From Ilex aquifolium (Eukaryota > Streptophyta > Magnoliopsida > Aquifoliales > Aquifoliaceae): 64,000 nucleotides of DNA. Below the pieces are notes generated by a model. The model was not told the origin of the DNA. It did not search any database and saw nothing but the letters and a program-made list of their open reading frames with translations. The stretch's first letter is position 1, and each line of letters opens with the position of its first letter. Location of the stretch: the NCBI GenBank assembly GCA_951799425.1, contig OX637393.1, forward strand, positions 5,654,744 to 5,718,743, in the 5' to 3' direction. This document shows, in pieces, positions 19,376-49,235 of this stretch. Both the position numbers and the translations under genes were made by a program.

Positions 19376-19420
19376 TGATTCAACAGAGAAAGTGTTTATA
19401 AATGAGAATTTTGTCGATTC

Positions 19421-19435: not shown

Positions 19436-19438
19436 AAC

Positions 19439-23062: not shown

Positions 23063-23718
23063 GTTAGCTTTCTGTCATTGTTTGTGATATTGCCAAACAC
23101 AGTATTAACTCAAACCTTGGTATTTACTACTTGAGTAATGCCACTTAGACTGAGTTGATCTGCGCGTTTAATTTATTACTGTTATTAATTTAATTAGAAA
23201 TTCATATTAATTTGATTTGACTTAAGTTACTGATCTAATCAATCATGACTATTAAACTGATGGTAAATTCGATCCGAATAATAGGGCCCTCTGGTAGGTT
23301 TACCTGCATACTACCCAAATGGGCCTTAATGGGTCATATTCAAATTCAGGAGGTGTTTGTGAGCCAAATAGTCTGGCAGGATGGGTAGGACCTTAGACTC
23401 ACTTCCAGCTACTCAAAAAAGATATGGTCGAATGCTTTTGAGCCTGACATTTCTATACCGAGTTGTATGCATGTGAAAAGAATGAACAAATTGATAGCAA
23501 TAGTCTATTATGTGAATAGAGGTACACCACACACATTAGTGCCCAAAAGGGAAAGAAGTGCACTTTTTTCTTTATTTTATCCATAAGCTAAGGCATATGC
23601 TTCTCATTGTTCAAGCTTATGACTTACCTCATGCTCTCCGATTCTGAGGGAAAGAATAAATGCCCTACTTCTCAATGCACTTTCATCGGTCGCTCACACA
23701 CTTCTTACAAATAGATAC

Positions 23719-24302
23719 TGATGGTGTTATTTTACACGAATGAGCAATGAGTTTGGGTTCAATGGTATGGGATGGATCTGAGCTACGAGGCTCATGAAAT
23801 TGTGTGTGAGTGCTCTAGTTATCTGAGATGTGGTGTGTGTAACACATAGAAATATAGTGGTTCACCGGCTATTGAGCTCGGCTAGTCCACTCTTCAATGG
23901 AGTCTCTTGCTCCTAGAATCTATATTCATCTAGAAAATATTTCACAAGATGCCTTTGATGCCAGTAGGGTTCTCTGCCTTTGATTGAGGCGATGTACAAT
24001 ATTTATAGTGTAATTCCTATCTCTAAGAGATTTTTACCGAGATCTTTGTCCTTCATCCGTAGGATCTTCCTTGATTTTTGGGATAGAATCTTGGTTAGTT
24101 GAGAGTTTTGTGCCTTGATTCTAGCTTTCCATTGCTTTGAGGATGCTATTCACCAGCCAACTGTTTCCCTTTCAATTTCCCGTTTGTTTTCTTTGAGCAG
24201 AGCTTGAGGTCTGGATTGCGGAGCCCTGGTTACTGTGTCTGACCTCCTTGTCTGACCTCAATGTCTGAGCTCATACTTAGAGCTTTTTTCTAGGTATCAT
24301 CA
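23719..24302 (-). repeat. LTR L1 (3' end of composite)
   Basis: 584 bp, almost identical to L3 (39370-39953) and L4 (42464-43047). The polypurine tract, minus GGGCTGGGGGGCAAC, lies at 24303-24317, so L1 is a 3' LTR. A minus-strand TATAAAT lies near 24001-24008. Confidence 0.92.
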
Positions 24303-24609
24303 GTTGCCCCCCAGCCCTTGGCCCAAGCGACCTTGGGCAGGGGCTGAGTTGATGCTGAATTGAGATAGACTTCCACACATCGACCTCGATTTGCATGAGC
24401 TCGAGGTGCAGAGAGCTGCTGCTTTTCCTACGGTTGCCGAGTTCCCATTGCTTCGAGAAGTACTTCAGTGCTTCTTGAAGCAAAATTATTGACTTTATGA
24501 GCTGCCGGGCTCTTTTTAGGAATTAAATAGCCCATTTCGAGCTCCTAGGCTCTTTTCTGAACTATTGGAGTTCTTCGTGGGCTGTGTTGTTCATATCATG
24601 AACTGAATA

Positions 24610-25200
24610 GTTTAGCGCGAGCTACGTGGCTCCTATTATGAGCTGAAGAGTTCAGCGTGAGCTGCTTGGCTCAAGTTATGAACTGAATAGTTCATCGTGA
24701 GCTGCTTGGCTCAAGTTATGAACTGAAGAGTTCATCGTGAGCTGCTTGGCTCAAGTTATGAACTGAAGAGCTCATCGTGAGCTGCGTGGCTCAAGTTACG
24801 AACTGAAGAGTTCATCGTGAGCTGCTTGGCTCAAGTTATGAACTGAATAGTTCATCGTGAGCTGCGTGGCTCAAGTTATGAACTGAAGAGTTCATCGTGA
24901 GCTGCGTGGCTCAAGTTACGAACTGAAGAGTTCATCGTGAGCTGCTTGGCTCAAGTTACGAACTGAATAGTTCATCGTGAGCTGCTTGGCTCAAGTTATG
25001 AACTGAAGAGCTCATCGTGAGCTGCGTGGCTCAAGTTACGAACTGAAGAGTTCATCGTGAGCTGCTTGGCTCAAGTTATGAACTGAATAGCTCATCGTGA
25101 GCTGCGTGGCTCAAGTTACGAACTGAAGAGTTCATCGTGAGTTGCTTGGCTCAAGTTATGAACTGAATAGTTCATCGTGAGCTACGTGGCTCAAGTTATG
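24610..25200 (-). repeat. 40-bp hairpin tandem array
   Basis: About 15 copies of a 40-bp unit. Each contains ATGAACTGAAGAGTTCAT, able to form a 7-bp stem with a GAAG or GAAT loop, and TGAGCTGCTTGGCTCA, a 5-bp stem. Units differ by substitutions in the stems, many of which keep pairing. It lies between gag and the 3' LTR. Confidence 0.88.
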
Positions 25201-25490
25201 AACTGAAGAGTTCATCTTGAATTTATGAGCTGAAGAGCTCATCTTGAATTTATGAGCTGAAGAGTTCATCGGATGTTTATGAGCTGAAGAGCTCATCTTG
25301 AATTTATGAGCTGAAGAGCTCATCGGATGTTTATGAGCTGAAGAGCTCATCGGATGTTTATGAGCTGAAGAGCTCATCTTAAATTTATGAGCTGAAGAGC
25401 TTATCGGATGTTTATGAGCTGAAGAGCTCATCGGATGTTTATGAGCTGAAGAGCTCATCTGATGTTCATCAACTGAAGAGCTCGTCTTGT
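25200..25490 (-). repeat. 27-bp hairpin tandem array
   Basis: About ten copies of a 27-bp unit around ATGAGCTGAAGAGCTCAT, a 7-bp stem with a GAAG loop, alternating CGGATGTTT and CTTGAATTT linkers. The 9-codon period keeps a minus-strand frame open (MSSSAHKHP repeats). I do not call it a gene. Confidence 0.88.
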
Positions 25491-26726
25491 TCTCTGACAT
25501 CTTCCCTTCTCTTGGGGGAGCGATCCCTGTCTCTTCTTGGGGACCTATCTCGTCCTCTTTCTTTCCTAGGACTTTGATCCCTCTTATTTTCTTCCTTCAC
25601 TTTTTCCTTCTGTGAGGATGAGCTCCCTACCTTTGAGAGAAGGGCTTCCTCGCCATTAATATACTTTTCTGTTTTAGCCAGCACCTCTGCCATGCTTGCT
25701 TGCGGGTTCTTTGATATAGAAAATATCAAATCTTTCGATTGCACTCCTAATCCAGCAATGAAAGCAATGATCGCAAACTTCTCATATGGAATATCTACCT
25801 TCAGGGATTCTGAATTGAACTTTTGGACATAAGACCGTAGGTTCTCGTTGGGTCCCTGTTTTACATTCAACAGGTGGTAGCTCGGCTTTCTGTATATCCG
25901 AGCTCCTATAAAGTGAGATACAAAAGCTATGGAGAGCTCTCTAAAGGATGAGATCGAGGCTGGTGGGAGCCTGTGAAACCAGGCCAGGGCAGAGCCTTTT
26001 AACGTGATGGCAAAAGCTCTGCAACGTACAGGATCCTGGTATCCATGCAGTTCCATCTGGTTCTTGTAAGTGTTGAGATGATCTACGGGATCTTTCGTTC
26101 CGTCAAAGACCTCTATTTGAGGCATCTTGAACTTTGGTGGGAGAGGAAAGTGCAGCACTCCAGTGGTGAATGGGGACTCAGTCTGTTGTACTAGGGCGTC
26201 CATTGTAACCGGAGCCTTGCTCTTTATAGCCTCTTTCATGTGGCTGAGCTCTTGCTGGATGTCCTTGAAACGTTGCTCCCAGTGTTGTTCTCTCCTGTCT
26301 TGGTGGTAGGGAAAAAAATCGTCTCTCTCGCCCCCATCGTTCTGACTTTGTACCTCTTCGTTGTGGCCGTTCCTAAGGGGTTGATGAGGGACTTCCCCCA
26401 TGGTCTGGCTATTTTCCAACCTCTCGTTGGCTTCTGAGGGGGTTGGGGTGTTGCTGCTCCCTGCGTGGGGGGTTATTCTGGCCTTCTTGGGCTCGTTGTG
26501 CCTCCTGTGGGCAGTGCAAGTGTTTCAAGAGTTCCTCATTCTGTTGTATCAAGCGCTCGTTGGCTTGGCGAAGGGCTGCCAACTCATTGTTGGTGGGGGG
26601 AACTCCCCTGGGAGGATTCGTCTCCTGGGCATTCTCAGGCTGTCCGTCGTCGGTGGCGTCATGTTGATCTGTCACTCGTGGTGGATTTATTTGACTTCTA
26701 CTCATGTTTCGTGTAGAGACCATCAA
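25469..26726 (-). pseudogene. L-type gag, first copy (frameshifted)
   Basis: The start is MMVSTRNMSRSQINPPR at 26726, then a Gln/Glu-rich helix (NNELAALRQANERLIQQNEELL), then the gag core (VFDGTKDPVDHLNTYKNQM, FAITLKGSALAWF, SLKVDIPYEKF). The C-terminus is an Arg/Ser/Asp-rich tail (RDRSPRRDRDRSPKRRED) instead of a CCHC zinc knuckle. A 2-bp deletion near 26435 relative to the second copy (TTCTGAGG versus TTCTCTGAGG) breaks the frame between residues about 105 and 110. It is flanked by PBS and L2 upstream and the hairpin array downstream. Confidence 0.87.
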
Positions 26727-26766
26727 TCACTGAAAAATCAGTATATTTGTAACAAGAACTGTCGTT

Positions 26767-26782
26767 CCCACAGACGGCGCCA
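26767..26782 (-). promoter_or_regulatory. Primer-binding site next to L2
   Basis: Minus-strand TGGCGCCGTCTGTGGG starts 3 nt inside LTR L2. Confidence 0.85.
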
Positions 26783-26785
26783 AAC

Positions 26786-27336
26786 TGATGATGTTATTTT
26801 ACACGAATGAGCAATGAGTTTGGGTTCAATGGTATGGGATGGATCTGAGCTACGAGGCTCATGAAATTGTGTGTGAGTGCTCTAGTTATCTGAGATGTGG
26901 TGTGTGTAACACATAGAAATATAGTGGTTCACCGGCTATTGAGCTCGGCTAGTCCACTCTTCAATGGAGTCTCTTGCTCCTAGAATCTATATTCATCTAG
27001 AAAATATTTCACAAGATGCCTTTGATGCCAGTAGGGTTCTCTGCCTTTGATTGAGGCGATGTACAATATTTATAGTGTAATTCCTATCTCTAAGAGATTT
27101 TTACCGAGATCTTTGTCCTTCATCCGTAGGATCTTCCTTGATTTTTGGGATAGAATCTTGGTTAGTTGAGAGTTTTGTGCCTTGATTCTAGCTTTCCATT
27201 GCTTTGAGGATGCTATTCACCAGCCAACTATTTCCCTTTCAATTTCCCGTTTGTTTTCTTTGAGCAGAGCTTGAGGTCTGGATTGCGGAGCCCTGGTTAC
27301 TGTGTCTGACCTCCTTGTCTGACCTCAATGTCTGAG
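26786..27336 (-). repeat. LTR L2, truncated
   Basis: It matches L1/L3/L4, but the last 33 bp or so of the 584 (the 5' tip on the minus strand, normally ending in GTATCATCA on plus) are missing. It is joined at TCTGAG|GTGCC to the gag of another element. Confidence 0.88.
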
Positions 27337-27835
27337 GTGCCTTGCTTTTAACAGCCTCCTTCATGTGGCTGAGCTCTTGCTGGATGTCTTTGAAACGTTG
27401 TTCCCAACGCTGCTCTTTCCTGTCCTGAGGATACGGGTAAAAATCATCCCTATCCCCCCCGTCGTTCTGACTTTGCACTTCGTCGTTATGGCCATTCCTA
27501 GGGGGTATATAAGGAGCATACCCCCTGGTGTGGCTGCTTTCTCCTCCTTCGCCGACCTCTCTGAGGGGGTCCCAGTGTCGCTGTTCCCGGTAAGGGGGAT
27601 TACTCTGGCCTTCTTGGGCCGGTCGTGCCTCCTGTGGGCGTTGTACGAGCTTTGATAGCTCTTCGTTTTCTTTTAGTAATCGTTGGTTGACGAGGCGAAG
27701 GGCCTCCAACTCGTTATTAATGGGGGAATTAACCTCGGGAATATTCCCGGGTTGTCTGCTGTTGGTAGCTTCCTGTGGGTCTTGCATTCGTGGTAGGTTT
27801 GTTTGACTTCTGCTCATATTTCGTGTCGTTACCAT
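27337..27835 (-). pseudogene. D-type gag, N-terminal part only
   Basis: It begins MVTTRNMSRSQTNLPRM and resembles L gag through the coiled region (LEALRLVNQRLLKENEEL) and the WEQRFKDIQQELSHMKEA segment. It is cut at KSKAP by the junction with L2, and the frame then runs into LTR sequence. The gag core is absent. Confidence 0.85.
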
Positions 27836-27879
27836 CAGTCACTGAAAAATCAGCTTATTTGTAGAAGGAACAGTCGTTT

Positions 27880-27895
27880 CCCACAGACGGCGCCA
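27880..27895 (-). promoter_or_regulatory. Primer-binding site next to D1
   Basis: Minus-strand TGGCGCCGTCTGTGGG lies 3 nt inside LTR D1, identical to that of the L element. Confidence 0.85.
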
Positions 27896-27898
27896 AAC

Positions 27899-28592
27899 TG
27901 ATGGTGTAAACCTTCGGGAATGAGCTATGGGATCGAAGTATCTTATCTGGGTGATCTGTATAGGGCTTGATATGGTGTCTGAGCTACCAGGCCCATAAAG
28001 TGGTGGATGAATGCTATATTTTACGACGTATAGTGTGTGAAATACGGTAGAAGTATAGTGGTTCACCGGCTAGTGAGCTCGGCTAGTCCACTCTCTAATG
28101 GAGGCTCTTACTCCCTTGTCTTTATTGATGAAATTGAATGTGTTACAGTAGAATTATCAGAGTCTTAGGGTTTCTGGTTGTTCTCCCTCTGGCCATGGAG
28201 GTTGTCCTCCCCTTTTATGGCCTCATGCTTACCTCTAACACGGAATTACCTCCTATATTGAAGGGATCGTGCCCTATCTTCATCCATAATTCCGGGGTTA
28301 CCTAAACTCCTTACGGCTGGCTTCAAACAGAGAGATCTTTGCCTTATTTCGTGGGATTCTCCTTAGCTTTAGGAGGGGATCGTGGTTGATTGCGGGTCTA
28401 ATGCCTTGGAATGGTTCTACTTTCTTTTTAGTGATATCCGTAGTTACCTTGCTGTCCTTTCATCATTTCTTAACTCGTGTCCTCAGCTGGGAGCCTTTAG
28501 CGCTGACTAGATGAGCTCTGGCCAATGCCGGATGAGCTCTGCTTCTTCTGTCTGAGCTCCCGACCTGAGCTTATTTCCTGAGCTCGTGTCTG
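27899..28592 (-). repeat. LTR D1, 18-19 bp short
   Basis: Nearly identical to D2 but lacking the terminal stretch TTCATTTCAGGTATCATCA. It is joined by TAAAC directly to D2, giving two LTRs head to tail with no internal region between them. Confidence 0.9.
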
Positions 28593-28597
28593 TAAAC

Positions 28598-29310
28598 TGA
28601 TGGTGTAAACCTTCGGGAATGAGCTATGGGATCGAAGTATCTTATCTGGGTGATCTGTATAGGGCTTGATATGGTGTCTGAGCTACCAGGCCCATAAAGT
28701 GGTGGATGAATGCTATATTTTTCGACGTATAGTGTGTGAAATACGGTAGAAGTATAGTGGTTCACCGGCTAGTGAGCTCGGCTAGTCCACTCTCTAATGG
28801 AGACTCTTACTCCCTTGTCTTTATTGATGAAATTGAATGTGTTACAGTAGAATTATCAGAGTCTTAGGGTTTCTGGTTGTTCTCCCTCTGGCCATGGAGG
28901 TTGTCCTCCCCTTTTATGGCCTCATGCTTACCTCTAACACGGAATTACCTCCTATATTGAAGGGATCGTGCCCTATCTTCATCCATAATTCCGGGGTTAC
29001 CTAAACTCCTTACGGCTGGCTTCAAACAGAGAGATCTTTGCCTTCTTTCGTGGGATTCTCCTTAGCTTTAGGAGGGGATCATGGTTGATTGCGGGTCTAA
29101 TGCCTTGGAATGGTTCTACTTTCTTTTTAGTGATATCCGTAGTTACCTTGCTGTCCTTTCATCATTTCTTAACTCGTGTCCTCAGCTGGGAGCCTTTAGC
29201 GCTGACTAGATGAGCTCTGGCCAATGCCGGATGAGCTCTGCTTCTTCTGTCTGAGCTCCCGACCTGAGCTTATTTCCTGAGCTCGTGTCTGTTCATTTCA
29301 GGTATCATCA
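28598..29310 (-). repeat. LTR D2
   Basis: A full 713-bp LTR preceded (minus) by the polypurine tract GGGCTGGGGGGCAAC at 29311-29325, so it is the 3' LTR of the pol-bearing element. A minus-strand CCATAAAAGG near 28910-28919 is a likely TATA box. Confidence 0.9.
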
Positions 29311-29325
29311 GTTGCCCCCCAGCCC

Positions 29326-29959
29326 TTGCCTTAGGTTAGCCTAGGCAGGGGCTGACCTACACGAACTGAATTAGACCCGCACGTGGCCAGCATGTGGCTT
29401 GAGGATTTTTGACGGTTTACAGCAATCATGTCTTTCCTCGATTCCCGCGCATGTCTTTACCCACGTCCCTCAAGCTTTAAAGACCCAAACGGCTACCTGA
29501 ACCGTCTCTTCACACTATTCATCTTCCTCGCTGCTCCTCGTCTCCATTCTCTCTGCGATTTCGGACCATTTTGCTTGAGCCTCTCTGTTTTCTTGCTTGA
29601 AATCGACTTCCCTACCCTCGTTTCGAAGATTCGCATCGCCTCCTTCCTCCGATAGTGATTCAGGCTACCATTCACAGCTATTCCTGAGTTAGGTACGTCC
29701 TTTGCCCCTTCTTCTTCCTTCCTTTACTCTGGATCCCTCGAATTCGAGGTGGTTGTTGCATTTTTGGGCTTTTCGGTTCTTTTATTTTTGGAATCGCGAC
29801 CATTGCTTAGCCCCTCTTCCTTATTTCGTCGATTGGAGCTCTATAGTTCACATTCTTGCCGTCGGGAGTTACTGTGCTGACCCAAGGGTTATCAAAGAGT
29901 GCCTAACCCGTGCTCCTTTGCTTTATCGTTCCTTTCACCTTCCTTTTTCCCTTCCTATC
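29326..29959 (+). promoter_or_regulatory. Probable promoter and leader of antisense gene 1
   Basis: No coding is supported before 29960. There is a TTTAAAG at 29476-29482, AACGG and AACCG motifs just after it, then a long CT-rich leader (29510-29660) typical of plant 5' regions. The assignment rests on position and composition. Confidence 0.35.
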
Positions 29960-30755
29960 ATGTCTGCCTCCTCTGGAGCCACTCGCTCCTCTGTTTCACT
30001 TTTAGGGTCTAGGTCAGCCGAAGATGACTCCGAATTAGGGGAGGTAGGCGACGAGATAGATAACTTCCCTGGGGTGGAAACCGTTGATTCTGAGGTTAAT
30101 ACCGAAGAGCCTCCCTCAGCGTCCCCCTCCTTGCCTCCTAAGCCAGACAAAGGCAAAGGTAAGGTCAGTGGAGTTGGGGTTGAAGGGAAGACCTCATATT
30201 TGGGGCAGGCCTTTAAGCACGCCGAGTCTGTGGGCTACAGCAAAGAGGCCCCTGAGCTAATGAAAGTTTATAAGCTTCGGTATGGCTTTCCTCCTGGGGT
30301 CGAACCCTGGTGCTCAGACAAATCTGTCTACTATGTAGAACAAGTACACAATAGGGTCTGCTTCTTTCTTGCCTCCTTTGAGAACGGTCTTCGCTTTCCT
30401 CTGCACCCCTTCGTCAAGGCTGTTCTGCAACACTTCCATGTGTGCCCTTCCCAGGTTTCCCCCAACTTCTATGGTGTCATGATTGGTCTTCTGGTCATCT
30501 TTAGGAAGCATAAACTTGGGCTTCCTAGTATTTCTCTGTTTTTAGAGCTCTTCAACGTCAAGCCGACCTCTGGAGGCTTCTTGTATGCCTCTAAGCGTGC
30601 CAACGCTAGGCAGCTTATCTCTAATATTCCGTCCTCTCATAAGCACTGGAAAGAACACTTCTTCTTTGTCGGGGGCACCAATTGGGAGTATAATCCTGCT
30701 GATAAGACGGATACTCTTGGTATCCCTACAGCTTGGACTGAACCAGACAACTTGC
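29960..30755 (+). CDS. Antisense gene 1, exon 1 (plant gypsy-associated domain)
   Basis: First of four exons (29960-30755, 30844-31014, 31089-31630, 31713-32576; 2373 nt, 790 residues), on the strand opposite to pol. The ATG at 29960 (MSASSGATRSS) opens an acidic Ser-rich leader. From about residue 80 comes a globular region with FFLASFENGLRFPLHPF, VCPSQVSPNFYGVM and FLYASKRANARQ, which resembles the putative gypsy-type transposon domain (PF04195, Transposase_28) as I remember it. The exon ends at C|GTGAGT, and the split Arg codon is completed by exon 2. Extra antisense frames between integrase and 3' LTR are known in Tat-lineage elements; the function is unknown. The frame is unbroken, unlike every gag in the composite. 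Confidence 0.75.
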
Positions 30756-30843
30756 GTGAGTCTTTTCTTAAGTCAACTGAGCTCTGATCTGGAACTTGCA
30801 CACCTTTAGCCTTCTTCTTACTTGCACGCTTTCTTCTTTTCAG

Positions 30844-31014
30844 GTGATCGTTTTGAGCTCAGCCCTGAGGATAAGAAAGTGCTAGTGGAGTTGGAGAAGA
30901 TCAAGCCAGAGAGGTACGCTGACCTTATTGAGTCACGAAATTTGGTGCGGATAGGTCTAAGTCCTCCTGTGGTGACCTTGGCGATCCCATTATCGGTTTT
31001 AGGGGCTGACGAAG
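30844..31014 (+). CDS. Antisense gene 1, exon 2
   Basis: Acceptor TTCTTTTCAG and donor GAAG|GTACCT. It reads DRFELSPEDKKVLVELEKI and then KPERYADLIESRNLV. Phase is preserved at both ends (Arg and Asp codons split across the introns). Confidence 0.7.
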
Positions 31015-31088
31015 GTACCTTCTTTCTTTTCCTCTTCGTTGTGCTTCCTTCCCCTCTTCTTCTCCTTACGTCTCCCTACTCTCCCCAG

Positions 31089-31630
31089 ACATTCCAGGTT
31101 CTTCTACCATGAAGTCTACTCCAGAAGAGCTCAAGGCCAAGGTGGATGAACTGATGAAAGGTGGTAGATCCAGCAAGCGCAAGTCTCGGGTTAGTTCTGG
31201 GAGTGGTCCAGGTGTCCGGGCTAAAATCCCCAGATTGGAGGTGTCTTCTCCCCCCTCTATAACTGAAGAACAGGTTCCAAGCAAGGCTCCGCCCTCCTCC
31301 TCTGGGACTCCACAAACCGCAATCCCCTCCTCCCCTCCAGTGGCTCCTTCTGAGCTGACGTCTGCTCAAGAGGGGGGGCAGGCTTCCCCTTACTCCTCCG
31401 AGGTCGAGAAGGCCTTGAAATTGATTCCCGACCTCCAACCCAGAAATTTCAGATACAGCGCCTCGGGGAAGGTGATTGAGAAAAAGGGGGAGGATGAGGA
31501 CTCCTTTTTTGACAACATGGACCTTGCTGTTGGAGCTCTGTCCTCTATTTTTTCTGAATCTGATGTCCTGAAGGCTGCTTCCATGCCCCTTGAGGAATCC
31601 ATCTCTTCAGCTCTTCAGGGGGCGGCTGCT
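31089..31630 (+). CDS. Antisense gene 1, exon 3
   Basis: Acceptor CTCCCCAG and donor GCT|GTAAGT. It encodes a Ser/Pro-rich, low-complexity stretch with a basic cluster SSKRKSRVSSG that could act as a nuclear localisation signal. It ends phase 0. Confidence 0.7.
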
Positions 31631-31712
31631 GTAAGTGCTGGCCCCTTTTCCTCTTTGCTTGTTCGCATTTTGTGGTCTGATGTAATTTTCTGTTCTTTCT
31701 TTATATTCTCAG

Positions 31713-32576
31713 GCTGCCCTTCATACGAGAGGTCTGCTGCACCGAGTCCAGTCTCAAGAGAGCTCCTTTAAGGTCCTGAAGACATATAAGGCCAAAATTT
31801 CTGAATTGTCTCTTGAGAACGAAGGCCTTGGAACTCAGAATGAAGACCTCAAAGCTCAGGTGGAGAACCTCAAAGAGCAGTTGGTGAAGCAAGCTTCCGA
31901 CCTTAAGCATACATTGACCGTCATGGTCAGAGCTGAGGAAGGGGAGAAGAAAGCTCAGGACGAACTGAGGCTGGTTAAGGAGGACCTGCAGCTTAAGGTT
32001 GAGGCGTGGGCCAAGGCCAGCCAAGAGGCTTTTGACGCCAAGAAAGAGCTCAGCCAGACCAAGCAAGACTATCTCGCCCTCAATGAAGCAAATGGCAAGC
32101 TCTGTGAGGAGCTTGAGGAGCAGAAAAACTTGGTCACACAGAAAAGTAAGGAGATTGCCGAGCTTAAAGATGAGGCCACCACTTTGTGGGCTACTGGATG
32201 GGTTGCTTTTAGGCGTAAAGCTATCAAAGCTTACCCAGATCTCGAATTCAATTTCCCTATCCCTACTGAGGAGGAAATGGAAGAATCTGACTCTAGTGGT
32301 GAGGAAGACACCTCAGCTCTTCCTCCTGGAGCTCCCCTCCCAGATGCCTCTGCTTCCCCCTCTACTGTTCTTGCTGTGGCCTCATCTGCTGACCTGGTGA
32401 CTGGGGCACTTGAACAAACATCATTGCCTGGTACGGCGGAGGCTCCTGGGGTCAGTGTTCCCGAAAATTCCACTCCTCCAGCATCAGGATCCTTGCCTCC
32501 CGAGCCCCAGGGTTCTGCTTCTCTTGTTGATGCTGTGTCTACCGAACTGCAGGGGCTTCTGTCCACTCCCCCTTAG
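31713..32576 (+). CDS. Antisense gene 1, exon 4 (coiled coil)
   Basis: Acceptor TATTCTCAG. It encodes a long heptad-rich coiled coil (SFKVLKTYKAKISELSLENE through about residue 650) and then an acidic, Pro/Ser-rich tail, with a stop at 32574. The coiled coil suggests self-association or partner binding. Confidence 0.72.
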   Translation, partial: AALHTRGLLHRVQSQESSFKVLKTYKAKISELSLENEGLGTQNEDLKAQVENLKEQLVKQASDLKHTLTVMVRAEEGEKKAQDELRLVKEDLQLKVEAWAKASQEAFDAKKELSQTKQDYLALNEANGKLCEELEEQKNLVTQKSKEIAELKDEATTLWATGWVAFRRKAIKAYPDLEFNFPIPTEEEMEESDSSGEEDTSALPPGAPLPDASASPSTVLAVASSADLVTGALEQTSLPGTAEAPGVSVPENSTPPASGSLPPEPQGSASLVDAVSTELQGLLSTPP

Positions 32577-33563
32577 GTCTTCTTACTTGTAATTTCTTTG
32601 TAAAGAATTTTTGAGATGTAACTTTGACTTGGGCTAGGGCCTTGTGCTACTTTGTGATCGTTCGTTATTTTGTTTTTTCATTGTTGGTTTATCATATTCA
32701 TATGTCCCTTTGAATTTCAGCACATATATATTTTTGAATATATCTTTGAATTTGCGCACCTGTATGTATTCAACTTTGTATACTCCCCTTCCCCCCTTTT
32801 GCTTTGAGGGGTGTTGTGCACTTCTTGAAGCAAAATTACTAGATTTGAAGAGTACAGGAGACTTGGTGCTATGCTCAACTGCTTCTCCTAAGCCTTTTAA
32901 GCTCAGTGGTTGGCACCCTAAGGATCCATTATTTATCCTTCTTCGTTTTGAGCTGCTTAGACTGATATTTTGAACTGGCTTGCTCCTTCCGGGTTGTATA
33001 GCTCATGCTTATGAATTCTTGCTGAGCTATGCAGCTCTTCTTTCTGAACCTAAGAGCTCTTACTGCGCTTTTTAGCTCTTTTTGTTATCTTAAGAGCTCT
33101 TTCTGAGCTACTTGGCTCAGTTGTCTGACCTTAAAGGTTATTTCTGAGCTTCGTTGCTTTTTCGACAGATCTCTTTCTGGAATAGATAACAAATCCTGCT
33201 GCTCCATTTCTCTGATAATAGAAGACTTTATTCTACGTTTCACATTTCTTTTCCCCTTGCCTTGCTTTGAGGAGTGCTTTAGGCCTTCTTTAAGCAAGGC
33301 TATGAACTTTCACATGCTGTCAAGTTTCCTTGATGAACTGAAGAAACTATTAGGAGCTTTTCCTCTTTAAGGTGAACAGGGCTGTTAGAATTGCAGGCCT
33401 TAAAGACTTGCTATACCAGTGTTTTGTTTTTGACTGGGCTGAGCTAAAATTTGGAGGATATGTGGCTTGGTGGGGTCAGAATGTTCCTTCGTTGTCTTGA
33501 ATGCAATATAAGGGGCAATTTTGTACCTATTCCTTTTCCCGCGTTTCTCTCTCAACTGCTTCC
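32577..33563. other. Spacer between antisense genes
   Basis: I see no gene. Degenerate AGAGCTCTT-type repeats at 32990-33130 and the phrase CTTCTTGAAGCAAAATTA at 32820, shared with 24470 and 40120, show homology to the hairpin-array flank of the L elements. A TATAAGG at 33507-33513 could serve antisense gene 2. Confidence 0.5.
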
Positions 33564-33698
33564 CATAACCGCCACGTCTTTCATGACCGCAACCACTTTT
33601 CATAACCGTAGCCACTTTCCATAACCGTAGCCACTTTCCATAACCGCTGCTACTCTCCATAACCGTAGCCAGTTTCCATAACCGCTGCTACCTTCATT
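33564..33698 (+). repeat. 19-bp tandem repeat upstream of antisense gene 2
   Basis: Seven copies of a 19-bp unit, CATAACCGTAGCCACTTTC-like, with substitutions. They lie 130-270 bp before the ATG at 33831 and just after the TATA-like motif. TAACCG recurs in most copies and resembles a MYB-type binding core. Confidence 0.85.
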
Positions 33699-33830
33699 AA
33701 TTAGGAAATTAAACAGGCAACTTGACTCCCTATTTCTTGGCTCTTTGTTTCCTGAAAAGCTCCCAAGTGTATGACATATTCTTGACTTTCTTCTTGATTT
33801 CTTGCGTCTTTTCCCTTACCAGCACTTTCG

Positions 33831-34437
33831 ATGGCTGCCTCTGCTTCTTCTTTGTTCCAGGAAAGATCCTCCTTTGGAATCGAATGGAAGTGGCATTGTC
33901 GCTACTTGTCCCCTTCAATACTTGAATCTTCTGATTTGGTGGATATCAAAAAACGGTTTTTCCCTAATCTTGACTTGCCTTTGCGAGTTTCTTCCTCCGA
34001 CGAGCCTTGCAACTACCTCCCGCGAGGGGAGGTCTGTTTCTTTGAAGGTGCTATGGACATGGGACTTCGCCTTCTCATTCATCCGGCCATTGGGCGAGTT
34101 CTTGCCTATTATGGCCTGTGCCCTTCTCGCCTTTCTCCACGAGGATGGGCTGCTATGGTAAGCTTCTTCTTGTTCTGCCGCCTGCATGCTCTTGGCAGGT
34201 TCCCCTTTGTCTCTGAGTTCCTGTACTTCTTTGAGATTGAGGAAGATGATGCCCCCTGCTTCAGTTTCTTCCGTTGGAGGGATTTCAATTTACGCCATTT
34301 GGTTCTAGATCTTCCCTCCAATCCTGAAGGGTGGTTTAGGCGTTTCTTCTTCGCCTCTGGAGAGTCTTGGAGGTCTCCTGAGGATCGCTGTCGTAAAGCT
34401 AGGATTCCTCGGTCCTGGAAGAGCTTCTCTCGTATTG
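33831..34437 (+). CDS. Antisense gene 2, exon 1 (paralogue of gene 1 domain)
   Basis: First of two exons (33831-34437, 34529-34938; 1017 nt, 338 residues). The ATG at 33831 (MAASASSLFQE) is preceded by a CT-rich leader. The region CFFEGAMDMGLRLLIHPA, LCPSRLSPRGWAAMV and then FPFVSEFLYFFEIEE lines up with the same-order motifs of gene 1 (CFFLASFENGLRFPLHPF, VCPSQVSPNFYGVM, ISLFLELFNVKP). I therefore infer an ancient duplication of one gene. The donor is ATTG|GTAAGC, with the Asp codon split. Function unknown. Confidence 0.75.
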
Positions 34438-34528
34438 GTAAGCTCGAGCCGAGCTCTTTTGAGTACTTTTCTTTTTTTTTTTTTTTTTTTTTTTTAAGAT
34501 ATGCTCTTATTATGTCCTTGCTGTGCAG

Positions 34529-34938
34529 ATCCGCCTGACCTGGATTTACCAGGGATGGTGAATATCAACGAGATGCTGCTTGTAGAGTCTAAGACTTATT
34601 CCGAGCTGATGACGAGCGCAAACCTCTATTTGCTTGGGGCTGAGGCTACTGAGTTTGAGTTTTCCACTATTCCTTACCCTTCCTGGACCTCTTTCTCTGA
34701 TTCTGATGAGGACGGGGATTCTGACAAGGACGGAAACACCGTCACGAGTTCAAGGAAGCGTAAGAGGGATGACTCTCCTTCTCCTGACTCTTTGTCCATC
34801 ATTTTCCTTACCTCCATTGGTCAAAAGCTTCTCGACTCGCTTCACAAGGCTGAGCAAGAAAGGGATGAGCTGAAGAAAGAGAATGTTAGCCTGAAGGGAG
34901 AGGTTGCTGAGCTGAGATCTGAACTTAAGAAAGACTAG
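34529..34938 (+). CDS. Antisense gene 2, exon 2
   Basis: The acceptor GCTGTGCAG follows a long T-run (34471-34496). It encodes DPPDLDLPGMVNINEML, an acidic stretch, a basic cluster SSRKRKRDD that could be a nuclear localisation signal, and a C-terminal coiled coil (SLHKAEQERDELKKENVSL). Stop at 34936. The overall plan of domain, basic cluster and coiled coil repeats that of gene 1. Confidence 0.75.
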
Positions 34939-35459
34939 GATCTTTGTTCCCTTGCATCTTTCTTTCTTTTCCTGAACGATACCAGACTATGCCCCCTTTT
35001 TTTTTTACTTTTCCGCACGTTTATTTTCTTGGATATTCTGAATTCTAGTTTGTTCATTCTTGAGTGTGCATGCCCACATACGAGCTCTTTGTGTTTGAAA
35101 CATGAACGTAGAAGGAAAACAGAAGATCATGCTTGCACTGACCTTAGTTCCTGATTAGTCCCAGAGATCAGACCACAAACATTGATGGAAAACAGAAAAT
35201 CAGGTTTGTGCTGACCCCAATTCCCAACTGGTTTCCATTGGTCGCACCACGAGCGTTGATGGAAAACAGAATATCATGTTGGTACTGACCTCACTTCCCA
35301 TCTGACTTTGTGAGTGCTCTCTGCCGTACTGGACGTTTTAGGGTTTTCGAGGGGGTAGGCAGTGCATAAGGACCATTAGTCGCGGGGGAAAGACTGTTGG
35401 TGTCTCCAAGAAGGGACCAGTCTTGAATTTCACGAACCTAGAAGCTTGTACGCGCCGAG
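34939..35459. other. Spacer between antisense gene 2 and the pol-side hairpin array
   Basis: I see no gene. Three degenerate direct repeats containing GATGGAAAACAGAAGATCAT-like text occur at 35105-35290. Confidence 0.5.
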
Positions 35460-36150
35460 GAGCTGTAGAACTCCTCTTGCTTTTGGTAAGCTTGGAAGCT
35501 TATCGTTTGTATATGAGCTGAAGAGCTCATCTTATATTTATAAGCTTTGAAGCTTATCGCTTGTTTATGAGCTGAAGAGCTCATCTTGTAGTTATAAGCT
35601 TTGAAGCTTATCGTTTGTTTATGAGCTGAAGAGCTCATCTTGCAGTTATAAGCTTTGAAGCTTATCGTTTGTTTATGAGCTGAAGAGCTCATCTTGCATT
35701 TATAAGCTTTGAAGCTTATCGTTTGTTTATGAGCTGAAGAGCTCGTCTTGCATTTATAAGCTTTGAAACTTATCGTTTGTTTATGAGCTGAAGAGCTCGT
35801 CTTGCATTTATAAGCTTTGAAGCTTATCGTTTGTTTATGAGCTGAAGAGCTCGTCTTGCATTTATAAGCTTTGAAGCTTATCGTTTGTTTATGAGCTGAA
35901 GAGCTCATCTTGCATTTATAAGCTTTGAAGCTTATCGTTTGTTTATGAGCTGAAGAGCTCGTCTTGCAGTTATAAGCTTTGAAGCTTATCGTTTGTTTAT
36001 GAGCTGAAGAGCTCGTCTTGCATTTATAAGCTTTGAAGCTTATCGTTTGTTTATGAGCTGAAGAACTCATCTTGCATTTATAAGCTTTGAAGCTTATCGT
36101 TTGTTTATGAGCTGAAGAGCTCATCTTGCAGTTATAAGCTTTGAAGACCA
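35460..36150 (-). repeat. 54-bp double-hairpin tandem array
   Basis: Thirteen copies of a 54-bp unit (two 27-bp halves). One half carries ATAAGCTTTGAAGCTTAT and the other ATGAGCTGAAGAGCTCAT, each a perfect or near-perfect hairpin. The unit is 18 codons, so a 237-residue minus-strand frame (FKAYKCKMSSSAHKQTIS repeats) stays open across the array. I read it as non-coding structure. Confidence 0.9.
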
Positions 36151-36212
36151 TTGAAGGGTGAATAAAAGACTTGCTCTTTCTTATTTAAAAGTAGCTCTAT
36201 TACAAGTAACAC

Positions 36213-39200
36213 TTACTGAAAAAACTTCTTAAGGTGCTCGGCATTCCACGAGTGAGGTAGAACCTTTCCTTCCTCTGTTTGCAACTCGTAATTCCCCGGT
36301 CTGATTATCCTTGACACGATATAGGGCCCTTCCCAATTGGGTCCCAATTTCCCATGCGTGGGATCCTTTCTTGCAAGCAGAAGCCTCCTAAGTACCAAAT
36401 CTCCAACTTTGAAACTTCTGTGTCTTACCCTCCTGTCATAATACCTCGCAGTTTTCCTTTGGTAAGTACGGACACGGTGCAGAGCTCTGTCCCTCTTTTC
36501 ATCCAAGAGATCGAGGTTTAGCAAGAGAGATTCATCATTATGCTCGGAATCTGCAAACTCCACCCTTGGTGACTGGAGCCCTATCTCCACTGGGGCCACT
36601 GCCTCGGTCCCAAAGGCCAAAGCAAAGGGGGTTTCCTGAGTCGCAGATCTGGCGGTGGTCCTGTAGGCCCACAATACCTCCGGAATGTACTCCACCCATT
36701 TGCCTTTCAGGTTTTCTAGCTTGGTCTTCAAAGCTGACTTTATGGTTCTTATTGTGACCTCTGCCTGCCCATTAGACTGGGGATGGGCAGGAGCTGAGAA
36801 ATAGTTCTTGATTCCGAGCTCAGCACAAAAACTTTTGAACTTTGAATTATCAAACTGCTTTCCATTGTCAGATACGAATGCTCTGGGAACTCCAAACCTG
36901 CAAACTATCGACTTCCAAACGAAGTTTTGAACTTTTTGCTCTGTGATCGTTGCCAAAGGTTCGACCTCTGCCCATTTAGTAAAGTAATCCACTTCTACGA
37001 TGGCAAACTTGCACTGCCCCACACCGGTGGGAAGGGGTCCCAGAATGTCCAACCCCCACTGCTGAAAAGGCCATGGGCTTACCACCGAGGTTAGGAGCTC
37101 GGGAGGACAGTGGGACATATTGGCATGCTCCTGGCAAGTTTTGCATTTTCTTACCAAGTCGGTGGCGTTTTCGAGCATGGTGGGCCAATAATACCCTTGC
37201 CTCAATACTTTTCCTGCCAAGGCCCGAGCTCCTATGTGATTGTCACATATCCCCTCATGTACCTCTCTGAGTATATAGTTAGCATCTTCATCTCCTACGC
37301 ACTTAAGGAGAGGCGTTGAGAATCCTCGTTTATACAGGCTTCCTTGGAGTAGGGAAAATCTGGCTGACCTGGTCCTCAGCTTGGATGCCTCCTTTGTATC
37401 ACTTGGCAGAGTCCCATTCTGCAAGTATCCGATGATGGGGTCCATCCAGCTCGGCTGAGCTTCAACCGATAGCATGTCCTCTTCATTGATGCTTACTGAA
37501 GGCCCTGGGAGGTGCTCCACTGGAATTAGCCTATCCAAATCCTCTTGCGAAGCAGTTGATAACCTTGCCAGGGCATCTGCTCTTGAGTTTTCCGTTCTAG
37601 GCACGTGTCTGACCTTAACCTGCACAAATTTTTTCATTAGTTCTCGTACCTTTTTGAGGTAAAGGATCATCTTTTCGCCTCTTGCTTCGTAACATTCTTT
37701 TATCTGCTTCACCACCAGCTGAGAGTCACTGCAAATCTCCAGCTGCTCCGCTTCCATAGAATGGGCAAGATTGAGCCCAGCGATGACAGCTTCGTATTCT
37801 GCTTCGTTATTTGAAGCTCTGAACCCAAATCTAAGGGCGTATTCGACATCTATTCCTTCTGGAGAGGTCAAGATCATCCCTGCACCGCTTCCCTGAGCAT
37901 TAGCAGCTCCATCTACCGAAAGCTTCCAGATGGGGAGGTCCGGTATTAAATCTGTGGTCTCCATAGGCGCTGCTGCTGTGAATTCTACAATAAAATCTGC
38001 CAAAATTTGCCCTTTGATGGCAGTTCTTGGCTTATACCTGATATCAAACTCGCTGAGCTCTACGGCCCATTTAACCAACCTTCCTGAGGATTCTGGCTTG
38101 TGCAGCACTTGCTTCATCGGCTGATCTGTTGGAACCTCGATAGTATGAGCCTGGAAATAAGGTCTAAGTCTCCTAGTTGTTGTAACCAGAGCTAGAACGA
38201 GTTTTTCCATCTTTGGATATCTCTCCTCTGCCCCCCTCAGAGCTCTGCTACAGTAGTAAACTGGTTGCTGAGCTCTGTCTCGCTCCCTAACTAGCGCTGC
38301 ACTTGTTGAAAAATCTGAAACCGCTAGGTAGAGGGTGAGGACTTCCCCTTCTAAAGGGCTCACCAGAACAGGAGGATAGCTCATATATCTCTTTAGGGCT
38401 TCGAATGCTTCTGCACACTTGGTATCCCAGTGGAATGCCTTCTTCAAGATCTGAAAAAACGGCTGGCATTTATCGCTGGACCTAGACACAAAACGGCTTA
38501 GTGCAGCTATCCTGCCAGTCAAACGTTGCACCTCTTTCGTATTGGATGGTGGTTGCATTTCCACCATTGCTTTGACCTTTTCTGGATTGGCTTCAATCCC
38601 TCTGCTGCTGACTATAAAGCCCAGAAATTTTCCTGCCGAGACCCCAAATGCGCACTTCGCAGGGTTTAGCTTCATTTTGTACTCCTTTAGAATTTGGAAT
38701 GACTCAGCTAAGTGCTCGATGTGGAGCTCTGCTTTCAGTGACTTCACTAGCATGTCGTCAATGTAGACTTCCATGGATGCTCCTATTTGCTTCTGGAACA
38801 TCCTATTCACTAACCGCTGGTAAGTGGCTCCAGCGTTCTTCAACCCGAAGGGCATTACCTGATAACAATATGTTCCCTGTTCAGTTATAAAGGAGGTCTT
38901 CTCTTGATCGCTGGGATCCATCTTGATCTGGTTGTAGCCTGAAAAGGCGTCCATGAAACTGAGGAGCTCGTGCCCCGCAGTGGCATCCACTATTAGGTCA
39001 ATCCGAGGTAAAGGAAAACTGTCCTTGGGGCATGCTCGGTTGAGATCAGTGAATTCGATGCACAGTCGCCACTTCCCATTAGTTTTCTTCACAAGAACTA
39101 CATTTGCTAACCAAGTGGGGTAATCAACCTCCCTGATAGCCTTGGCATGGAGGAGTTTGCTGACCTCCTCATTGATTGCCCTTTGCCTTTCGGAAGCAAA

Positions 39201-39320
39201 GCTCCTCCTCTTTTGTTTGATGGGTTTGCAAGTTGGGCTCACGCATAGCTTGTGAGTAATAACCGAAAGATCAATCCCTTCCATGTCTTCTTGCTTCCAA
39301 GCAAACACTCCTATATTCAC
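36213..39320 (-). CDS. Tat-lineage Ty3/gypsy pol (RT, dual RNase H, integrase)
   Basis: 1035 uninterrupted residues. Reverse transcriptase spans about 60-240, with FMDAFSGYNQI and YIDDM at 186-190. A classical but degraded RNase H lies at about 325-450, and a second archaeal-type RNase H at about 465-590 (SVDGAAN, NNEAEYE, CSDSQL, RADALA). Integrase follows with its HHCC finger (NHIGARALAGKV, CKTCQEH), DDE core (LDILGPLP, VSDNGKQFD, NGQAEVTIRTIK) and a C-terminal GPY module. There is no chromodomain. Dual RNase H marks the Tat lineage. The frame begins at the start of RT: gag and protease are absent, and L3 with a PBS lies only 30 bp upstream, so this is the pol of an autonomous D element joined to an L LTR by recombination. 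It lacks its own start context and would not make protease. Confidence 0.93.
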   Translation of the reverse strand: MNIGVFAWKQEDMEGIDLSVITHKLCVSPTCKPIKQKRRSFASERQRAINEEVSKLLHAKAIREVDYPTWLANVVLVKKTNGKWRLCIEFTDLNRACPKDSFPLPRIDLIVDATAGHELLSFMDAFSGYNQIKMDPSDQEKTSFITEQGTYCYQVMPFGLKNAGATYQRLVNRMFQKQIGASMEVYIDDMLVKSLKAELHIEHLAESFQILKEYKMKLNPAKCAFGVSAGKFLGFIVSSRGIEANPEKVKAMVEMQPPSNTKEVQRLTGRIAALSRFVSRSSDKCQPFFQILKKAFHWDTKCAEAFEALKRYMSYPPVLVSPLEGEVLTLYLAVSDFSTSAALVRERDRAQQPVYYCSRALRGAEERYPKMEKLVLALVTTTRRLRPYFQAHTIEVPTDQPMKQVLHKPESSGRLVKWAVELSEFDIRYKPRTAIKGQILADFIVEFTAAAPMETTDLIPDLPIWKLSVDGAANAQGSGAGMILTSPEGIDVEYALRFGFRASNNEAEYEAVIAGLNLAHSMEAEQLEICSDSQLVVKQIKECYEARGEKMILYLKKVRELMKKFVQVKVRHVPRTENSRADALARLSTASQEDLDRLIPVEHLPGPSVSINEEDMLSVEAQPSWMDPIIGYLQNGTLPSDTKEASKLRTRSARFSLLQGSLYKRGFSTPLLKCVGDEDANYILREVHEGICDNHIGARALAGKVLRQGYYWPTMLENATDLVRKCKTCQEHANMSHCPPELLTSVVSPWPFQQWGLDILGPLPTGVGQCKFAIVEVDYFTKWAEVEPLATITEQKVQNFVWKSIVCRFGVPRAFVSDNGKQFDNSKFKSFCAELGIKNYFSAPAHPQSNGQAEVTIRTIKSALKTKLENLKGKWVEYIPEVLWAYRTTARSATQETPFALAFGTEAVAPVEIGLQSPRVEFADSEHNDESLLLNLDLLDEKRDRALHRVRTYQRKTARYYDRRVRHRSFKVGDLVLRRLLLARKDPTHGKLGPNWEGPYIVSRIIRPGNYELQTEEGKVLPHSWNAEHLKKFFQ

Positions 39321-39350
39321 TTTTAGGAACTGGATGAGGAGTCCTTTGAG

Positions 39351-39366
39351 CCCACAGACGGCGCCA
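39351..39366 (-). promoter_or_regulatory. Primer-binding site next to L3
   Basis: Minus-strand TGGCGCCGTCTGTGGG. Pol begins within about 30 bp of it, so the intervening gag and protease region has been lost. Confidence 0.85.
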
Positions 39367-39369
39367 AAC

Positions 39370-39953
39370 TGATGGTGTTATTTTACACGAATGAGCAATG
39401 AGTTTGGGTTCAATGGTATGGGATGGATCTGAGCTACGAGGCTCATGAAATTGTGTGTGAGTGCTCTAGTTATCTGAGATGTGGTGTGTGTAACACATAG
39501 AAATATAGTGGTTCACCGGCTATTGAGCTCGGCTAGTCCACTCTTCAATGGAGTCTCTTGCTCCTAGAATCTATATTCATCTAGAAAATATTTCACAAGA
39601 TGCCTTTGATGCCAGTAGGGTTCTCTGCCTTTGATTGAGGCGATGTACAATATTTATAGTGTAATTCCTATCTCTAAGAGATTTTTACCGAGATCTTTGT
39701 CCTTCATCCGTAGGATCTTCCTTGATTTTTGGGATAGAATCTTGGTTAGTTGAGAGTTTTGTGCCTTGATTCTAGCTTTCCATTGCTTTGAGGATGCTAT
39801 TCACCAGCCAACTGTTTCCCTTTCAATTTCCCGTTTGTTTTCTTTGAGCAGAGCTTGAGGTCTGGATTGCGGAGCCCTGGTTACTGTGTCTGACCTCCTT
39901 GTCTGACCTCAATGTCTGAGCTCATACTTAGAGCTTTTTTCTAGGTATCATCA
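39370..39953 (-). repeat. LTR L3 (shared by two units)
   Basis: 584 bp. It has a polypurine tract on its right side (39954-39968) and a primer-binding site on its left side. It therefore acts as 3' LTR of the gag unit at 39970-43047 and as 5' LTR of the pol unit. Confidence 0.92.
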
Positions 39954-40259
39954 GTTGCCCCCCAGCCCTTGGCCCAAGCGACCTTGGGCAGGGGCTGAGT
40001 TGATGCTGAATTGAGATAGACTTCCACACATCGACCTCGATTTGCATGAGCTCGAGGTGCAGAGAGCTGCTGCTTTTCCTACGGTTGCCGAGTTCCCATT
40101 GCTTCGAGAAGTACTTCAGTGCTTCTTGAAGCAAAATTATTGACTTTATGAGCTGCCGGGCTCTTTTTAGGAATTAAATAGCCCATTTCGAGCTCCTAGG
40201 CTCTTTTCTGAACTATTGGAGTTCTTCGTGGGCTGTGTTGTTCATATCATGAACTGAAT

Positions 40260-41150
40260 AGTTTAGCGCGAGCTACGTGGCTCCTATTATGAGCTGAAGA
40301 GTTCAGCGTGAGCTGCTTGGCTCAAGTTATGAACTGAATAGTTCATCGTGAGCTGCTTGGCTCAAGTTATGAACTGAAGAGTTCATCGTGAGCTGCTTGG
40401 CTCAAGTTATGAACTGAAGAGCTCATCGTGAGCTGCGTGGCTCAAGTTACGAACTGAAGAGTTCATCGTGAGCTGCTTGGCTCAAGTTATGAACTGAATA
40501 GTTCATCGTGAGCTGTGTGGCTCAAGTTATGAACTGAAGAGCTCATCGTGAGCTGCGTGGCTCAAGTTACGAACTGAAGAGTTCATCGTGAGCTGCTTGG
40601 CTCAAGTTACGAACTGAATAGTTCATCGTGAGCTGCTTGGCTCAAGTTATGAACTGAAGAGCTCATCGTGAGCTGCGTGGCTCAAGTTACGAACTGAAGA
40701 GTTCATCGTGAGCTGCTTGGCTCAAGTTATGAACTGAATAGCTCATCGTGAGCTGCGTGGCTCAAGTTACGAACTGAAGAGTTCATCGTGAGCTGCTTGG
40801 CTCAAGTTATGAACTGAATAGTTCATCGTGAGCTACGTGGCTCAAGTTATGAACTGAAGAGTTCATCTTGAATTTATGAGCTGAAGAGCTCATCTTGAAT
40901 TTATGAGCTGAAGAGTTCATCGGATGTTTATGAGCTGAAGAGCTCATCTTGAATTTATGAGCTGAAGAGCTCATCGGATGTTTATGAGCTGAAGAGCTCA
41001 TCGGATGTTTATGAGCTGAAGAGCTCATCTTAAATTTATGAGCTGAAGAGCTTATCGGATGTTTATGAGCTGAAGAGCTCATCGGATGTTTATGAGCTGA
41101 AGAGCTCATCGGATGTTTATGAGTTGAAGAGCTCATCTGATGTTCATCAA
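40260..41150 (-). repeat. Hairpin tandem arrays (40-bp then 27-bp units), second L copy
   Basis: Near-identical to 24610-25490, with one extra 27-bp unit (near 41100) and a few substitutions such as GAGCTGTGTGG near 40510. Confidence 0.9.
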
Positions 41151-42404
41151 CTGAAGAGCTCGTCTTGTTCTCTGACATCTTCCCTTCTCTTGGGGGAGCG
41201 ATCCCTGTCTCTTCTTGGGGACCTATCTCGTCCTCTTTCTTTCCTAGGACTTTGATCCCTCTTATTTTCTTCCTTCACTTTTTCCTTCTGTGAGGATGAG
41301 CTCCCTACCTTTGAGAGAAGGGCTTCCTCGCCATTAATATACTTTTCTGTTTTAGCCAGCACCTCTGCCATGCTTGCTTGCGGGTTCTTTGATATAGAAA
41401 ATATCAAATCTTTCGATTGCACTCCTAATCCAGCAATGAAAGCAGTGATCGCAAACTTCTCATATGGAATATCTACCTTCAGGGATTCTGAATTGAACTT
41501 TTGGACATAAGACCGTAGGTTCTCGTTGGGTCCCTGTTTTACATTCAACAGGTGGTAGCTCGGCTTTCTGTATATCCGAGCTCCTATAAAGTGAGATACA
41601 AAAGCTATGGAGAGTTCTCTAAAGGATGAGATCGAGGCTGGTGGGAGCCTGTGAAACCAGGCCAGGGCAGAGCCTTTTAACGTGATGGCAAAAGCTCTGC
41701 AACGTACAGGATCCTGGTATCCATGCAGTTCCATCTGGTTCTTGTAAGTGTTGAGATGATCTACGGGATCTTTCGTTCCGTCAGACCTCTATCTGAGGCA
41801 TCTTGAACTTTGGTGGGAGAGGAAAGTGCAGCACTCCAGTGGTGAATGGGGACTCAGTCTGTTGTACTAGGGCGTCCATTGTAACCGGAGCCTTGCTCTT
41901 TATAGCCTCTTTCATGTGGCTGAGCTCTTGCTGGATGTCCTTGAAACGTTGCTCCCAGTGTTGTTCTCTCCTGTCTTGGTGGTAGGGAAAAAAATCGTCC
42001 CTCTCGCCCCCATCGTTCTGACTTTGTACCTCTTCGTTGTGGCCGTTCCTAAGGGGTTGATGAGGGACTTCCCCCATGGTCTGGCTATTTTCCAACCTCT
42101 CGTCGGCTTCTCTGAGGGGGTTAGGGTGTTGCTGCTTCCTGCGTGGGGGGTTATTCTGGCCTTCTTGGGCCCGTTATGCCTCCTGTGGGCAGTGCAAGTG
42201 TTTCAAGAGTTCCTCATTCTGTTGTATCAAGCGCTCGTTGGCTTGGCGAAGGGCTGCCAACTCATTGTTGGTGGGGGGAACTCCCCTGGGAGGATTCGTC
42301 TCCTGGGCATTCTCAGGCTGTCCGTCGTCGGTGGCGTCATGTTGATCTGTCACTCGTGGTGGATTTATTTGACTTCTACTCATGTTTCGTGTAGAGACCA
42401 TCAA
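41147..42404 (-). pseudogene. L-type gag, second copy (stop and frameshift)
   Basis: Same architecture as 25469-26726, but broken by different lesions. A TAA at 42174-42176 replaces CAA of the first copy, and a 2-bp deletion near 41783 (GTCAGACC versus GTCAAAGACC) shifts the frame inside the VFDGTKD core motif. It retains the 2 bp missing from the first copy. Neither copy can make full-length gag. Confidence 0.88.
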
Positions 42405-42444
42405 TCACTGAAAAATCAGTATATTTGTAACAAGAACTGTCGTT

Positions 42445-42460
42445 CCCACAGACAGCGCCA
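42445..42460 (-). promoter_or_regulatory. Primer-binding site next to L4, one mismatch
   Basis: Minus-strand TGGCGCTGTCTGTGGG. One base differs from the other L and D sites, a C-to-T change on this strand. Confidence 0.82.
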
Positions 42461-42463
42461 AAC

Positions 42464-43047
42464 TGATGGTGTTATTTTACACGAATGAGCAATGAGTTTG
42501 GGTTTAATGGTATGGGATGGATCTGAGCTACGAGGCTCATGAAATTGTGTGTGAGTGCTCTAGTTATCTGAGATGTGGTGTGTGTAACACATAGAAATAT
42601 AGTGGTTCACCGGCTATTGAGCTCGGCTAGTCCACTCTTCAATGGAGTCTCTTGCTCCTAGAATCTATATTCATCTAGAAAATATTTCACAAGATGCCTT
42701 TGATGCCAGTAGGGTTCTCTGCCTTTGATTGAGGCGATGTACAATATTTATAGTGTAATTCCTATCTCTAAGAGATTTTTACCGAGATCTTTGTCCTTCA
42801 TCCGTAGGATCTTCCTTGATTTTTGGGATAGAATCTTGGTTAGTTGAGAGTTTTGTGCCTTGATTCTAGCTTTCCATTGCTTTGAGGATGCTATTCACCA
42901 GCCAACTGTTTCCCTTTCAATTTCCCGTTTGTTTTCTTTGAGCAGAGCTTGAGGTCTGGATTGCGGAGCCTTGGTTACTGTGTCTGACCTCCTTGTCTGA
43001 CCTCAATGTCTGAGCTCATACTTAGAGCTTTTTTCTAGGTATCATCA
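42464..43047 (-). repeat. LTR L4 (5' end of composite)
   Basis: 584 bp, directly followed by target duplication GATAC at 43048. It differs from L1 and L3 at only a few positions, for example C to T near 42504. Confidence 0.92.

Positions 43048-49190: not shown

Positions 49191-49235
<45 letters not shown>

Follow-up and report, generated by a model that had tools for sequence, protein, structure and literature searches.

Two antisense genes in a Ty3/gypsy element

The window analysed here is the whole stretch of 64,000 nucleotides at positions 5,654,744 to 5,718,743 of contig OX637393.1 (forward strand) in the Ilex aquifolium assembly GCA_951799425.1. It contains a Ty3/gypsy long terminal repeat (LTR) retrotransposon in which two frames, called gene 1 and gene 2, lie antisense to pol and are opened by the removal of four predicted introns. 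A first-pass annotation had proposed a four-exon gene of 790 residues and a two-exon gene of 338 residues opposite pol; the same coordinates were obtained here, and both frames splice open. The genes and pol are as follows, in window positions:

29960..32576, plus strand: gene 1, 790 residues, antisense to pol (from its frame, Pfam, conserved sites and the ratio of nonsynonymous to synonymous divergence, dN/dS)
29960-30755, 30844-31014, 31089-31630, 31713-32576, plus strand: gene 1 exons (spliced frame)
Residues 133-201 of the gene 1 protein: TRP28 domain (PF04195; Pfam)
30756..30843, plus strand: gene 1 intron 1, phase 1, 88 bases
31015..31088, plus strand: gene 1 intron 2, phase 1, 74 bases
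31631..31712, plus strand: gene 1 intron 3, phase 0, 82 bases
33500..33515, plus strand: TATA-like box upstream of gene 2, putative promoter
33831..34938, plus strand: gene 2, 338 residues, antisense to pol (frame, Pfam)
33831-34437, 34529-34938, plus strand: gene 2 exons (spliced frame)
Residues 68-136 of the gene 2 protein: TRP28 domain (PF04195; Pfam)
34438..34528, plus strand: gene 2 intron, phase 1, 91 bases, containing a T run
36213..39377, minus strand: pol, with reverse transcriptase (RT), RNase H, second RNase H and integrase domains

Three exon models were tried for gene 1, and the frame is open in the four-exon one only; two were tried for gene 2, where an alternative donor 6 bases earlier is likewise open and gives 336 residues. 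All four introns have GT..AG ends and lengths that are never a multiple of three; their good pyrimidine tracts, noted before, hold up at 72–88% pyrimidine in the last 25 bases before AG, and their T content is 41–54%, compared with 23–35% in the exons. The Pfam family named in the first-pass annotation, PF04195 (TRP28), is matched by the proteins of genes 1 and 2 at 33.0 and 33.3 bits, above the cut-off of 26.2. A basic stretch resembling a nuclear localisation signal is found near residue 352 of the gene 1 protein and near residue 278 of the gene 2 protein.

The exon 1 proteins of the two genes are 31% identical over 144 residues (E 4e-24), and in both genes the same tryptophan is followed by six more residues and one base before exon 1 ends. 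Because a phase-1 intron is shared at the same site after TRP28, genes 1 and 2 look like old tandem paralogs, and the intron would predate the duplication; none of 121 outside PF04195-like proteins is closer to gene 2 than to gene 1.

In pol, Pfam domains follow in the order RVT_1, RT_RNaseH, RVT_3 (488-605), Integrase_H2C2 and rve, with the second RNase H between RNase H and integrase, and the antisense TRP28 genes are located between pol and the 3' LTR; both arrangements are those of Retand (Tat) elements. From the pol domain order together with antisense TRP28, the element therefore fits the Retand group of Tat elements. The earlier assignment to the Tat lineage, with two intron-containing antisense genes, thus agrees with PF04195, the conserved intron sites and the pol domain order; its phrase "decayed sense genes" was overstated, since pol is open over 1054 codons and retains RT, RNase H and integrase.

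Intron sites, selection and copies

The three gene 1 intron sites and their phases (1, 1, 0) are matched in all 10 related loci compared, of which seven belong to one far gene 1 type, one to another and two to a near subfamily. Intron 3 of locus L001 was misplaced by the site finder and excluded from the identities; the conserved site is nevertheless visible there. Compared with the far types, the introns are 39–51% identical (shuffled letters give 36–37%), in strong contrast with exon 1 at 73–74%. The public protein collection holds 929 PF04195-like proteins, of which 121, called without splicing, were aligned; the exon 1 end is reached by 117 of them and E or K stands there in 110 of these 117, as expected of a GTGAG or GTAAG donor read through, in a set that comes from ENA records, is possibly not independent and has some residues in common beyond the donor.

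The dN/dS of gene 1 is 0.30 against L037 and 0.26 against L038, the near subfamily, with bootstrap limits of 0.18–0.46 over both, and 0.218–0.235 against L001–L005, which represent two far gene 1 types, over 604–606 of the 790 codons (L006–L008 were left out). Exon 1 alone gives 0.20–0.26 against L001–L005 at dS 0.84–0.96. In exon 1, the two remaining plus frames give 0.84–3.66 with 10–29 stops, the minus frames 0.20–2.97 with 6–20 stops, and the minus open reading frame (ORF) at 31076-31606 gives 0.75–0.79. Gene 1 aligns with L037 and L038 free of gaps until about 32560; the stretch between genes 1 and 2 has many gaps. For gene 2 the ratios are 0.18 and 0.11 against L037 and L038, over only 96 codons. 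By these comparisons gene 1 is clearly under purifying selection between families, and the shared intron sites and phases, taken with this selection, indicate that the frames and splice sites are more than chance.

When the assembly (800 Mb, 103 contigs) was searched with gene 1 DNA, matches were obtained at at least 40 places including the window, among them 27 others at 99–100% identity, 25 of full length; 12 of the places listed are at 93–96%. Exon 1 of gene 2 occurs at at least 150 places at 92–100% identity. The two adjacent copies of the type B LTR, located below, are 99.4% identical over 699 bases. The element is young, and the open frames of the window copy mostly reflect that youth, given at least 27 other gene 1 places at 99–100%. 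In 20 copies with both genes, chosen as the most similar and so biased toward intact ones, gene 1 is open in 15, gene 2 in 15 and both in 11; GT..AG is kept at introns 1–3 of gene 1 in all 20 and at the gene 2 intron in 19, whose length of 75–100 bases in these 19 goes with a T run that differs in length. TATAAGG lies upstream of gene 2 in 18 of the 20 family copies. Stop counts within the young family are close to expectation. The proposal that the genes were kept by selection therefore stands for gene 1 between families (0.22–0.30); open frames at this copy are not supported as a sign of selection. Judging from the alignments, selection on the element family is visible between families and not in the open frames of the window copy.

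Candidate explanations and the composite insertion

The explanation preferred here, with a probability of roughly 0.75, is that the two genes, tandem duplicates of an ancestral TRP28 gene that already had an intron, serve as antisense accessory genes of a Retand-type Ty3/gypsy element and are kept by selection on the element family. That they are real spliced accessory genes is, on the sequence comparisons, highly probable. The antisense genes would be transcribed from the integrated copy, against the direction of gag-pol, and the host would splice these transcripts; the genomic RNA, being of the other strand, would not allow the introns to be spliced out, so that they would persist through retrotransposition. 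The proteins would then act in the nucleus, probably on the transcription or RNA fate of the element. A role as nuclear regulators is the best guess because of the analogy with Grande GENE23 and HBZ, but it is held tentatively, at somewhat below even odds, and was marked down slightly when the heptad test showed no coiled coil.

Several observations weigh against this explanation. Within the young family the dN/dS-like ratio of gene 1 is 1.08 for singletons and 1.26 for shared variants, and that of gene 2 is 1.06 and 0.82 (L036 is omitted for both genes and L050 for gene 2; L035 is included with its last 150 bases misaligned), so that these variants look neutral and the earlier idea of testing dN/dS against related elements gives low ratios between families and values near 1 within this one. 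Between families, dS against L001–L005 is 1.1–1.4, near saturation, and dS of exon 4 was not computable for four of the five far loci. The minus frame that shares third positions with exon 1 gives 0.20–0.25, yet it carries 6 stops; the minus ORF at 31701-32312 gives 0.44–0.53, and the ten changes seen in gene 2 of L059 (2 synonymous, 8 not) yield 1.17. The windowed site finder looked for the best fit to the gene 1 protein around the expected positions, a procedure biased toward equal phase. Exons 2 and 3 are 51–58% and 57–63% identical to the far types, in little contrast with the introns, and compared with L037 and L038 the introns are 89–96% and the exons 95% identical, with excess divergence in intron 1 only. 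The TATA-like box upstream of gene 2 is absent from both L037 and L038, homologs of gene 2 at E 0.001 were not found in the public protein collection, and a simple heptad test showed no coiled coil, with Pfam coiled-coil matches below threshold.

If the frames were accidental, with splice sites by chance and openness merely through the youth of the insertion, a young copy and neutral-looking variants within the family would be expected, as found; PF04195 in both proteins, a between-family dN/dS of 0.22–0.30 confined to the gene frame and intron sites common to relatives make this very improbable. An origin as host genes captured by the element, or a later adoption of element genes by the host at this locus, agrees with introns typical of host genes and with the known capture of genes by LTR elements (PMC7264820). 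It is improbable, though less so than accident, since near-identical gene 1 copies at at least 27 other places, and gene 2 copies at at least 150, move with the element, and no TRP28 similarity beyond transposable elements is reported by PMC11963269. An ancient capture of a host gene may have taken place; host takeover at this locus was discarded, as nothing distinguishes the window copy from other copies. About equally improbable is that the antisense RNA itself matters, through double-stranded RNA or control by small RNAs, with little importance for the proteins: such a role has been put forward for antisense ORFs (PMC7264820) and could coexist with a protein role, but low dN/dS in a single frame and conserved intron sites are not predicted by it.

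Gene 1 also appears to move between elements. Compared with the window in 100-base steps, L001 is 97–100% identical over 28960-29959 and 49–82% from 30160 on, and its gene 2 differs at ten sites in exon 1; its gene 1 is 97–100% identical to that of L004, to which L001 is 77–93% alike over its first 800 bases (LTR and 5' part). Gene 1 was typed at 80 of the at least 150 gene 2 places, 50 of these at at least 96% identity: 27 of the 50 follow a window-type gene 1, 15 follow a gene 1 labelled by a 353- or 360-residue open frame (two of these copies lie 9.6 and 17.2 kb from gene 2), and 8 have no gene 1 among the matches listed. Gene 1 thus looks exchangeable as a block, the same LTR and gene 2 occurring with a different gene 1 and, in L001 and L004, the reverse; the exchanged versions have a synonymous divergence near 1, with LTR, 5' region and gene 2 otherwise nearly identical. 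Mosaic elements are well known, and template switching would be the plain reading of this mosaic. The bolder reading, which is unlikely, is an antisense system that makes two proteins from spliced transcripts, gene 1 being a swappable specificity module moved by template switching in reverse transcription as if matching or evading a partner, and the introns confining the proteins to integrated copies after host splicing.

The element is part of a larger composite:

28598..29310, minus strand: LTR of type B, the 3' LTR adjoining the antisense genes (ends and repeat pair)
27899..28593, minus strand: second LTR of type B, slightly truncated, directly abutting the first (repeat pair)
35460..36146, strand not assigned: 54-base unit repeated in tandem 12.7 times, lying between pol and the antisense genes
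23719..43047, minus strand: whole composite insertion, 19.3 kb, with a type A LTR and the 5-base duplication GATAC on either side

The flanking type A LTRs have 2 differences in 585 bases. Along the minus strand the order is LTR A, gag, repeats, LTR A, pol, repeats, antisense genes, LTR B, truncated LTR B, truncated gag, truncated LTR A, gag, repeats and LTR A, and this order of parts suggests an origin by template switching or recombination of element DNA. Motifs adjoining the LTRs are presumably primer-site and polypurine-like. All gags are broken, as had been stated: one is spread across two frames, the N-terminus of another is shifted and the third is cut at the 27336/27337 junction with another LTR. 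The empty site is found in a paralogous copy near 50228.

The surrounding DNA is tandemly duplicated (21115-23719 and 43046-45813 compared with 46560-54986), and the second copy, 46560-54986, retains the empty site. A solo LTR at 21637-22348, 78% like LTR B and flanked by GAATT, is missing from the paralogous copy near 47091. At 55430-64000 there is a second Ty3/gypsy element, whose repeats are 99.6% identical over 1459 bases; it has gag, protease, RT and integrase and matches the chromodomain weakly (18.8 bits, cut-off 25.1). In each of the short stretches 16200-20001 and 7120-11139, direct repeats (95% and 88% identical, respectively) enclose a gag domain; the two stretches are possibly non-autonomous elements.

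Relation to known systems

The first-pass annotation had called the tandem, spliced two-gene arrangement unusual, extra antisense frames being known. Antisense TRP28 ORFs are standard in Retand, being reported in 97% of clusters of recently active elements, and TRP28 is reported from flowering plants only (PMC11963269). That survey called ORFs of at least 600 nt with ORF Finder, and the word "intron" occurs 0 times in its main text (PMC11963269). Introns or paired TRP28 genes in Retand were not found in the literature searched, mostly without subscription papers; splicing and the TRP28 gene pair are therefore the part not found in print. If the genes are spliced, surveys without intron models detect only pieces of them, and the true TRP28 proteins become predictable and testable. 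The splice junctions also offer a clean test of expression, as reads from the sense genome cannot mimic them.

As in Retand, an antisense PF04195 ORF lies between pol and the 3' LTR, with tandem repeats in the same region and a second RNase H before integrase (PMC11963269, PMC6317226); unlike the published ORFs, both genes here need splicing, and two TRP28 genes stand in tandem (PMC11963269). The maize Grande gene23, by its description, is similarly an antisense gene between pol and the 3' LTR, with its own promoter and a nuclear protein (PMC7264820). Plant LTR elements are generally without introns, Ogre and EVADE being the exceptions named (PMC12786077); these resemble the present case in having functional introns and differ in that the introns are not in an antisense gene (PMC12786077, PMC6317226). 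HBZ of human T-cell leukemia virus type 1 (HTLV-1) offers a works-like analogy only: it is an antisense gene of an integrated element whose protein regulates sense expression, and it starts in the 3' LTR and encodes a basic leucine zipper protein, a class to which TRP28 proteins are not known to belong; no homology is claimed. A main HBZ transcript is spliced. If the preferred explanation is true, the TRP28 genes would give plants a counterpart of the antisense regulators known from human retroviruses.
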